Positions 2,862 through 48,353 of a stretch of 64,000 nt of DNA are shown piece by piece. Within the stretch, counting starts at the first letter, position 1. Every line of letters begins with the position of its first letter. The stretch is from Armatimonas rosea (GTDB lineage Bacteria; Armatimonadota; Armatimonadia; Armatimonadales; Armatimonadaceae). Position numbers and translations under genes: made by a program. The DNA is taken from the NCBI RefSeq assembly GCF_014202505.1, contig NZ_JACHGW010000003.1:558001-622000 (forward strand), written 5' to 3'. The notes beneath the pieces are model-generated. The model made no database searches. It saw only the letters and a list, made by a program, of their open reading frames with translations, and was not told where the DNA came from.

Positions 2862-3024
2862 AAACGTTTCTTTCTAGCCTGTTGCGCGCAGGCCGAGGGA
2901 TTTGTCGCCCCCGCTGGCGATCGGACTCGGAGCCAAGGCTCGATTACCGTTGCGCGACAGTGCCGGAATCACACCGGACTTCCCCAGAGGGCGGGAGCGG
3001 GGTCAGGGTATCACAAAATCCGGG

Positions 3025-46686: not shown

Positions 46687-47259
46687 ATGTTGAACCGACG
46701 TGCGTATATCGGACTTGCTGCGGGGCTGACCGGGGCACTTGCCCTCGGGCTCAATGCCTCCGCCAAGCGTGGTCCTCTCAAGATCGGGGAGGTGGTCAAG
46801 GCCCCCGTTCTCCGCGATATCGCCAGCGACAAGCCGCTGGATTTGGCCAGCTACAAAGGGAAAAAAGTGGTCGTGGGGATCTTTGTGCAGAAGAACTGCG
46901 GGACCACCTGGAAGTACTACGGCAAGATGGGCGAGATAATCGCCAAGTTCAAGGCCAAGGGAGTTGAGGTGGTTGGCATCCACAGCAGCCAGGGCGAGAC
47001 CGACGACATGATGCTCTCGGACCTGCAGTCCAAGAACCTCAACATTCCCCTGCTCGACGATAAGAAAGACCAGGCACTCATGAAGCTTGTGGGGGCGAAC
47101 TGCACCCCGACCTTTGTGGTGATCGACAAAGACAGCAAGCTGCGCTACTTCGGTTCGTACGATAAGTATGGCAGTGCACCCAACTATGTTCCGGACGCAC
47201 TAAATGCAATCCTCGCGGGCAAGCCAGTTAAGATGGCACAGACCCGCGCCTTTGGCTGA
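46687..47259 (+). CDS. Exported redoxin (AhpC/TSA-like thioredoxin-fold protein)
   Basis: The 190-aa product has an N-terminal export signal (RRAYIGLAAGLTGALALGLN) with a twin arginine, and then a thioredoxin fold: VVVGIFVQKNCGTTWKYYGK with a single Cys in place of a CxxC pair, GVEVVGIHSSQGETDD, NCTPTFVVIDKDSKLRYFGS with a second Cys before the cis-Pro motif. The layout matches redoxins that form a disulfide between distant cysteines. It lies directly upstream of the candidate selenoprotein, also redoxin-like, but a perfect terminator separates them. Confidence 0.83.
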   Translation: MLNRRAYIGLAAGLTGALALGLNASAKRGPLKIGEVVKAPVLRDIASDKPLDLASYKGKKVVVGIFVQKNCGTTWKYYGKMGEIIAKFKAKGVEVVGIHSSQGETDDMMLSDLQSKNLNIPLLDDKKDQALMKLVGANCTPTFVVIDKDSKLRYFGSYDKYGSAPNYVPDALNAILAGKPVKMAQTRAFG

Positions 47260-47314: not shown

Positions 47315-47360
47315 ACGTAAAACAGGCGGTGGGCTAGAGTGCCCACCGCCTGTTTTACGT
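47315..47360. terminator. Perfect 20-bp stem, bidirectional terminator
   Basis: ACGTAAAACAGGCGGTGGGC (47315-47334) is exactly inverted at 47341-47360 around a six-base loop. Read either way it ends in GCCUGUUUUACGU. It terminates the redoxin transcript and touches the -10 box of the next gene. Confidence 0.85.
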
Positions 47361-47372
47361 TATACTGCGCCT
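47361..47372 (+). promoter_or_regulatory. Leaderless -10 box of the candidate selenoprotein gene
   Basis: TATACT (47361-47366), six nt (GCGCCT), ATG at 47373. It abuts the terminator stem, so the -35 region would lie inside the hairpin sequence. No -10-like box or ribosome-binding site precedes the GTG at 47583. Confidence 0.65.
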
Positions 47373-48353
47373 ATGGAACTGACTCAGGAGCAGGTGGCCC
47401 AGCTTGCACAGGCATGGCAGCCGACACCCCAGGAGCGACGCTGGGAGAGCATTGGCTGGGTGGAGTCGCTCACCGAGGCGCTCACGCTCGGGCAGAAGAG
47501 TAAGCGCCTGATCTTTCTCTTCACCCTCGATGGCCGGATGCAGCGGGGACGCTGCTGAGGGGGCGCTTTTGCGACACGGGCCGTGTCGTTTAACAATGAG
47601 AAGATAGTCGCCGCCCTCAACTCTCTGACGGTGCCTGTCTATCTCTCCAACGATCTGGTGGTCGGGGACGAGCGCAGCGCCCTGACACGCATCCACCAGG
47701 AAGGCTACCGCAAGAAGCTCTCGGTGGGGACGGTTCACTGCTTTATTCTTGCCCCCGATGGTGCCCTCCTCGACACGATCCACGTGGCACTGGCGAGTCC
47801 CCAGCGGATCTTGGAGGCGGTGGAGAGGGCCGCACGGGAGCAAAAGATCGTGCCAGGGAGCCCCCTGGTCCCGGCACACCCCCTCTCGCTTCCCCCGGCA
47901 CCCCGTGGCGGCCTGCGCCTCCACATTGTTGCCCGTTATCTTGAGCGCAAGCCCGACGGCTCGCTCGGGCTTGTCACGGGCGCGGGAGGCAACTGGAGCG
48001 CGCTTCCCGGTGAGGACTGGCTCACGCTGAGCCCGACTGAAGCCAAGGCACTTCGGACGGGGGAGCGCCTCCAAGCGGAGCGCCTGCTCACGCACTTCTA
48101 CCCCCCGACCGAGAACAACGACCTGACGAAGAATCGCTTTGTGGAGCTGAGCTGGAAAAGCGAGCCGCTCCCAGATGGCATCCTGCGCCTGCGCGGCTCC
48201 CTTGTCCTCAAGCACTCTTTCTACAGCCGCGACGATCAAAACACGGCGCAGGCGGAGTGGGTGGGGTATGCCGACAGCAAGACACTCACCCTGGTGACCA
48301 CCAAGGCGACCTACAATAACCAGCCCTACGCGGTCGCGGTGACCACTACTTAG
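47373..48353 (+). CDS. Candidate selenoprotein: redoxin-like protein with in-frame UGA (Sec62)
   Basis: From the ATG at 47373 the frame runs 61 codons to a UGA at 47556-47558 and continues, with no other stop, to 48353 (326 residues if UGA is decoded). The UGA follows a Cys codon: DGRMQRGRC-U-GGAFATRA. Flanking segments form a thioredoxin-like pattern: RLIFLFTLDG strand before, helix EKIVAALNSL and strand VPVYLSNDL after, then GTVHCFILAPDGALLDTI as the late hairpin; the C-terminal 170 residues are a beta-rich domain of unknown family. A stem-loop just after the UGA resembles a bacterial SECIS. The downstream part has no start with a ribosome-binding site. Alternatives are a nonsense-mutated gene or sequencing error. 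Confidence 0.65.
47571..47589 (+). other. SECIS-like hairpin after the UGA
   Basis: CGACACG (47572-47578) pairs with CGTGTCG (47582-47588), extendable by a G-U pair, with loop GGC or, if one pair opens, GGGCC. The loop begins 20 nt after the UGA and starts with G, as bacterial SECIS models require. Confidence 0.55.

Follow-up and report, generated by a model that had tools for sequence, protein, structure and literature searches.

Does the in-frame UGA at positions 47556 to 47558 of a 64,000-nucleotide stretch of the Armatimonas rosea genome end a gene, or does it encode selenocysteine (Sec)? Sec, the 21st amino acid, is rare, and UGA normally serves as a stop codon. The stretch, called the window throughout, holds a plus-strand frame from 47373 to 48353 that contains this single TGA, ends in TAG and is otherwise open. 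An earlier reading made from the letters of the window (the sequence-only reading) had proposed that the frame is one gene for a thioredoxin-like selenoprotein, with a hairpin of the selenocysteine insertion sequence (SECIS) type behind the UGA. The comparisons described below indicate that the product is almost certainly a genuine selenoprotein with Sec at residue 62. Coordinates are collected in Table 1.

Conservation of the in-frame TGA

Between the A. rosea gene and that of its sister species, third codon positions were the most changed. The ratio of nonsynonymous to synonymous substitution rates (dN/dS) was 0.20 before the TGA and 0.25 after it, with synonymous sites near saturation. Coding selection is continuous across the UGA. 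A search of 61 related genomes yielded 13 matches in 9 genomes at identities from 63% down to 25%, and exactly one in-frame TGA was present in all 13. The homologous frames continue past the UGA position, where TGA was retained down to 25% identity and Cys was found in one subfamily (subfamily C, below). As TGA is common to independent genomes, a sequencing error by which TGC or TGT was misread as TGA is excluded. Constraint on both sides of the TGA and its conservation in homologues thus bear out the proposal of one 326-residue frame running through a single UGA.

The family was then defined on 291 genomes of the phylum Armatimonadota plus three Acidobacteria metagenome-assembled genomes (MAGs). 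A profile match was obtained in 66 of the 291 genomes. Each locus was read and duplicates were removed, which left 89 distinct sequences in which the Sec column is represented. TGA occupies this column in 73 of them and Cys, Ser or Asp in the remainder, and all of the TGAs fall in the same alignment column. Named relatives belong to Armatimonadetes MAGs, the three Acidobacteria MAGs and one MAG that was deposited as Actinomycetota but grouped within the phylum here. Judged by these alignments, the A. rosea gene belongs to a family that extends through the phylum and is wider than the sequence-only reading saw. No plasmid or viral relatives were found when these were searched for.

Three subfamilies can be told apart. 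Subfamily A (GRCUGGAF) has nine distinct members including the A. rosea gene, with TGA in all and no Cys form found inside it; in Acidobacteriota it was encountered only rarely (1 of 396 sampled). Subfamily B, mostly GHPxGCTUNNG, nearly always has TGA. Subfamily C comprises nine Cys forms (L094 to L101 and L106; for example, PCANARTLRATLF) and one Sec form (L107, CUTNARTLRAVLF). Almost the whole of L107 could be aligned with eight of these Cys forms, at 34 to 39% identity (E values of 1e-54 to 1e-69); the alignment with the ninth, L106, extended over 147 residues. Cys is also aligned at the Sec position in L088, and the Cys rows L103 and L104 are ordinary CxxC thioredoxin-like proteins. In the tree, labels other than Sec group together, and long branches lead to the Ser/Asp rows, a pattern that suggests decay of the Sec site in these sequences.

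Some members deviate from the common pattern. Four paralogues with Ser or Asp at the Sec site (L089, L091, L092 and L093) have also lost the partner Cys and are probably non-redox descendants. A divergent member (L144, ERCUGFAS) has a second in-frame TGA near its C-terminal end, which is either a genuine stop or another Sec codon. Five matches (L061, L132, L135, L136 and L142) contain one TAG besides the TGA, probably because the profile match extends beyond the true stop. The Bryobacterales member of subfamily A (L152, 6001 to 6839) is split over two frames after Sec by a frameshift or an assembly error.

A SECIS hairpin behind the UGA

The hairpin that follows the UGA is formed by the arms GCGACACG and CGTGTCGT around a GGC loop, with 8 bp, or 7 without the outer G-U pair, and a simple-hairpin free energy (dG) of -10.3. 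In the published model of bacterial SECIS elements, the loop lies 16 to 37 nucleotides (nt) from the UGA, G is found among its first two bases and the dG is -7.5 or less (PMC13188914); the hairpin at 47571 to 47589 is within these limits. When codons were redrawn synonymously with the peptide unchanged, hairpins this strong were rare (P = 0.003; 300 randomizations), and the 65 nt from the UGA folded with a z score of -2.97 relative to dinucleotide shuffles. The stem is identical in the sister species, whereas the subfamily A member L004 carries compensatory stem changes in the same register. The SECIS-like element that had been noticed by eye therefore stood up on fit to the model, on comparison with synonymous codings and on conservation.

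In most members, the hairpin is found 18 to 24 nt downstream of the UGA. Homologue hairpins occur in several registers, with the loop centre mostly 20 to 21, 23 to 24 or 25.5 nt after the UGA and a G[G/U] loop, a spread that should be useful for studying the distance tolerance of SelB. Within one register of 18 sequences, 6 of the 8 pairs had changed on both sides, and the covariation score was 0.427, compared to 0.188 for shuffles and at most 0.177 when the register was slid. Both-side changes affected 2 of 8 pairs in a second register of 15 sequences. Averaged over the 73 TGA members, the hairpin reached -6.9 kcal/mol versus -2.2 kcal/mol for synonymous re-codings, and 40 of them had an individual P value below 0.05 in this test.

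These data also bear on the possibility that the UGA is a true stop, with the downstream part separately translated or a decayed pseudogene. A GTG at 47583 could indeed begin a 256-residue open reading frame after the UGA, but this start would deprive the domain modelled below of its active-site loop and first beta strand. The near-equal dN/dS values continue across the UGA, it is TGA and not other stops that is kept in 73 homologues, and the SECIS element covaries. We consider a true stop highly improbable; an ordinary truncated gene or pseudogene is ruled out by the constraint across the TGA and its conservation.

Selenocysteine machinery

As the sequence-only reading had stated, the Sec genes are not in the window; all were found elsewhere in the genome. 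A. rosea has selA (506.7 bits), selB (356.6 bits; cutoff, 242), selD (372.3 bits) and a tRNA-Sec (61.6 bits; cutoff, 47) with the anticodon tca (UCA) according to ARAGORN. The selB gene is located approximately 25 kb before the window start. With these four components, the genome is able to make and insert Sec. SelB, Sec-tRNA(UCA) and the hairpin would together decode UGA 47556-47558 as Sec62, giving a two-domain protein of 326 residues. The selD of A. rosea (L045, L159) also contains an in-frame TGA (motif CAGUASK) and encodes a Sec form of the enzyme; A. rosea thus has a further selenoprotein gene besides the one in the window.

Across the phylum, a TGA homologue was present in 51 genomes, and selB scored over the cutoff in 45 of these, compared with 96 of the 240 others (Fisher P = 1e-10, a value that overstates independence, the genomes being related). 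Reading of TGA as another amino acid, as in a Trp code, or by generic readthrough would also account for a frame that is open apart from the TGA. It would not account for exactly one TGA per homologue, in one column, always at the redox position and with a SECIS after it, nor for replacement of Sec by Cys in homologues and the presence of tRNA-Sec and selB. This explanation appears even more remote than a true stop.

Several observations weigh against Sec as we read it. Most members of the family share ancestry within a single phylum and are therefore non-independent. No selB was found in six Armatimonadota MAGs that carry a TGA homologue; all six are fragmented or incomplete, and in one of them (G010) a tRNA-Sec scored 68.3 bits. 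Nor did selB pass the cutoff in one acidobacterial genome that harbours a subfamily A gene. The hairpin is weak in some subfamily B members, and 33 of the 73 were not individually below 0.05.

Structure and active site

An AlphaFold2 model built from a 64-sequence alignment had a predicted local distance difference test score (pLDDT) of 93.5 and a predicted template modelling score of 0.89. Its thioredoxin-like domain superimposed on a Thioredox_DsbH protein with a Z score of 13.0 and a root mean square deviation (rmsd) of 2.5 Å over 126 residues, and on AGR3, DsbH and the DsbD gamma domain with Z scores of 10.9 to 12.7. The predicted active site consists of a strand (residues 46 to 52), a loop with U62 and a helix (residues 63 to 72) that starts just after residue 62. 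For the C-terminal domain no clear fold match was found; the best, START/lipocalin-like with a Z score of 6.6, is within the range of common arrangements. A sequence relative in the PDB was not found.

Gapless spacing to CxxC relatives (L103, and L157 with VPGCAGC), read by eye, equates U62 with the first, nucleophilic Cys. The profile alignment put Sec at the second Cys of L103 but at the first of L104, and gapless spacing to the strand and helix favours the first. At position +3, where the usual resolving Cys is missing, there is Ala in A. rosea and Gly in subfamily B. Instead, a Cys precedes Sec, at -1 in subfamily A (CU) and at -2 in subfamily B (CxU), and it is the only nearby thiol. The cis-Pro position is occupied by Val here and by Gln in most of subfamily B, and by Pro in none of the 64 members. 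The combination of CxxC (or UxxC or CxxU) with cis-Pro that characterizes thioredoxin/DsbD-type oxidoreductases is thus not found. The confident model upholds the earlier suggestion of a thioredoxin-like fold with Sec at a redox position and corrects it in one respect, namely, that the partner Cys stands before Sec, with neither CxxU nor UxxC.

Proposed mechanism and role

The most likely role is that of a thiol-recycled selenol peroxidase or a disulfide/sulfenate reductase, and we put redox catalysis of this kind at slightly better than even. The selenol of Sec62, located at the N terminus of the first helix, would attack the substrate, a peroxide or a disulfide, and the product would be resolved by Cys61 as a vicinal selenenylsulfide with Sec62, comparable to that of the Gly-Cys-Sec-Gly tail in mammalian thioredoxin reductase. 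A cellular thiol system of the thioredoxin type would then reduce the Cys61-Sec62 selenenylsulfide, and the C-terminal beta-rich domain would select the substrate or partner. Sequence evidence bears out Sec coding, the SECIS, the fold and the placement of Sec, whereas catalysis, the selenenylsulfide, the reaction and its substrate are what we infer.

The missing cis-Pro and +3 Cys count against this assignment to the extent that they are compatible with a metal-binding role too. The Cys-Sec pair could bind a soft metal or metalloid (copper, mercury or arsenite, for example) in a chaperone or in detoxification, with no redox turnover. Catalogued selenoproteins with a CU motif include the metal-related MbdU, SaoL and HgcA (PMC13188914), and Pro is absent from the cis-Pro position in all 64 members. 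However, the fold matches oxidoreductases (DsbH, the DsbD gamma domain and AGR), the gene directly upstream encodes a redoxin, and in the neighbourhoods read the gene was not flanked by any gene for metal transport or resistance. We regard metal binding as unlikely, though clearly less so than the alternatives to Sec itself, and retain redox catalysis as the preferred role.

In the two main clades, Cys almost never takes the place of Sec, and the few non-Sec members look decayed (Ser/Asp). It seems an evenly balanced question whether these proteins make up a phylum-wide superfamily close to Sec-obligate, in which a Cys-before-Sec pair, on a thioredoxin fold that lacks cis-Pro and a +3 Cys, would carry out a reaction poorly supported by sulfur.

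Start site and neighbourhood

The intergenic region around GTTATACT has diverged between A. rosea and its sister species, yet GTTATACT itself is kept just 5' of the ATG in both, which agrees with the leaderless start at 47373 that had been proposed. A strict sigma-70 scan gave no promoter with both hexamers. A redoxin/AhpC-TSA-like gene (46687 to 47259, +) lies directly upstream and occupies the same place in the sister species (L148), with a terminator hairpin between the two genes. Retention of GTTATACT, and of the terminator hairpin by pairing, supports a leaderless single-gene transcript behind the redoxin gene. Since several relatives (L003, L004 and L005) have a hydrophobic, signal-like N-terminal stretch, whereas MEL is the very start of the protein in A. 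rosea and its sister species, the cellular location of the A. rosea protein may differ from that of those relatives. Elsewhere in the window, an AdoCbl-II (cobalamin) riboswitch match was recorded at 2908 to 2997 (-), with 37.0 bits just above the gathering score of 36.5.

Table 1. Features of the selenoprotein locus (window coordinates)
Feature	Position	Strand	Evidence
Predicted selenoprotein gene, 326 residues with UGA read as Sec	47373..48353	+	Frame translation, homologue conservation, dN/dS
In-frame UGA, predicted Sec62, context GRC-U-GGAF	47556..47558	+	TGA in 9/9 subfamily A members and 73 distinct family sequences
Cys61 codon (TGC), proposed resolving partner of Sec62	47553..47555	+	Invariant in subfamily A; Cys at -2 in subfamily B
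8-bp SECIS hairpin with a GGC loop that starts 20 nt after UGA	47571..47589	+	Folding, randomization, comparison
Thioredoxin-like domain, residues about 22-160	47436..47852	+	AlphaFold model; Z score of 13.0 to Thioredox_DsbH protein
Beta-rich C-terminal domain, residues 164-326	47862..48350	+	Model, pLDDT of 92.0 alone; best Z score of 6.6
Conserved GTTATACT, -10-like element adjoining ATG, leaderless mRNA	47358..47365	+	Kept in sister species with same spacing
Terminator-like hairpin of upstream redoxin gene	47318..47357	+	Sister-species sequence differs, still inverted repeat then T

Comparison with known selenoproteins and thioredoxin-fold families

The A. rosea protein had no match over the cutoff in NCBIfam or Pfam, and none of the 119 prokaryotic selenoprotein families in a 2026 catalogue has this motif (PMC13188914). 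In the open-licence literature, we found no description of Armatimonadetes, Armatimonadota or Fimbriimonas selenoproteins or of these motif strings. These searches agree with the earlier statement that no described selenoprotein family with this context was known, and the proteins look like a new, numerous thioredoxin-fold selenoprotein family, undescribed as far as the literature found. A phylum for which that literature yielded no selenoprotein work thereby gains a selenoprotein family, the genes of which standard annotation would end at the UGA. Absence from the 119-family catalogue is probably due to the rarity of Cys forms. The authors of deep-Sep have pointed out that a selenoprotein lacking Cys homologues may go undetected (PMC12013277), a caveat that suits this family; if the family is close to Sec-obligate, methods that search for Cys/Sec pairs would have missed it for this reason.

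The nearest named family is VPGUxxT (NCBIfam NF041382/NF041383, hypothetical protein OS_HP5), which has an N-terminal thioredoxin-like domain, a similar length and, as here, Sec at the first-Cys position of CxxC (by gapless spacing to L157). It differs in its VPGU motif with Thr at +3, whereas the present proteins have GRCUGGA (A) or GCTUNNG (B), with a Cys before Sec and no +3 Thr. Membership was rejected for the A. rosea protein at 15.4 bits versus a cutoff of 350, the best of 64 members giving an E value of 3.9e-6. None of the 61 related genomes had a VPGUxxT profile match over the cutoff, and a search for type 1 in Acidobacteriota gave only one partial match, below the cutoff. The Trx7/PDZ domain (seleno)protein (NF041199) shares a Thioredoxin_7-like domain with Sec at the active site but has a CxxU motif and a PDZ domain, whereas there is no Cys at -3 here. 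It was likewise rejected, with scores below the cutoff and a match in 1 of 64 members (E value, 9e-4).

DsbH/Thioredox_DsbH (DUF255), the DsbD gamma domain and AGR have the same fold (Z scores of 10.9 to 13.0; rmsd of 2.4 to 3.2 Å over 111 to 126 residues). They have no catalogued Sec form, their bacterial members are CxxC proteins, and the family described here has an extra C-terminal domain. Mammalian thioredoxin reductase ends in a Gly-Cys-Sec-Gly tail and thus has a vicinal Cys-Sec pair in common with the A. rosea protein. The two proteins are unrelated, however: the pair of the reductase sits on a flexible tail, whereas in A. rosea it adjoins the first helix of a thioredoxin fold.
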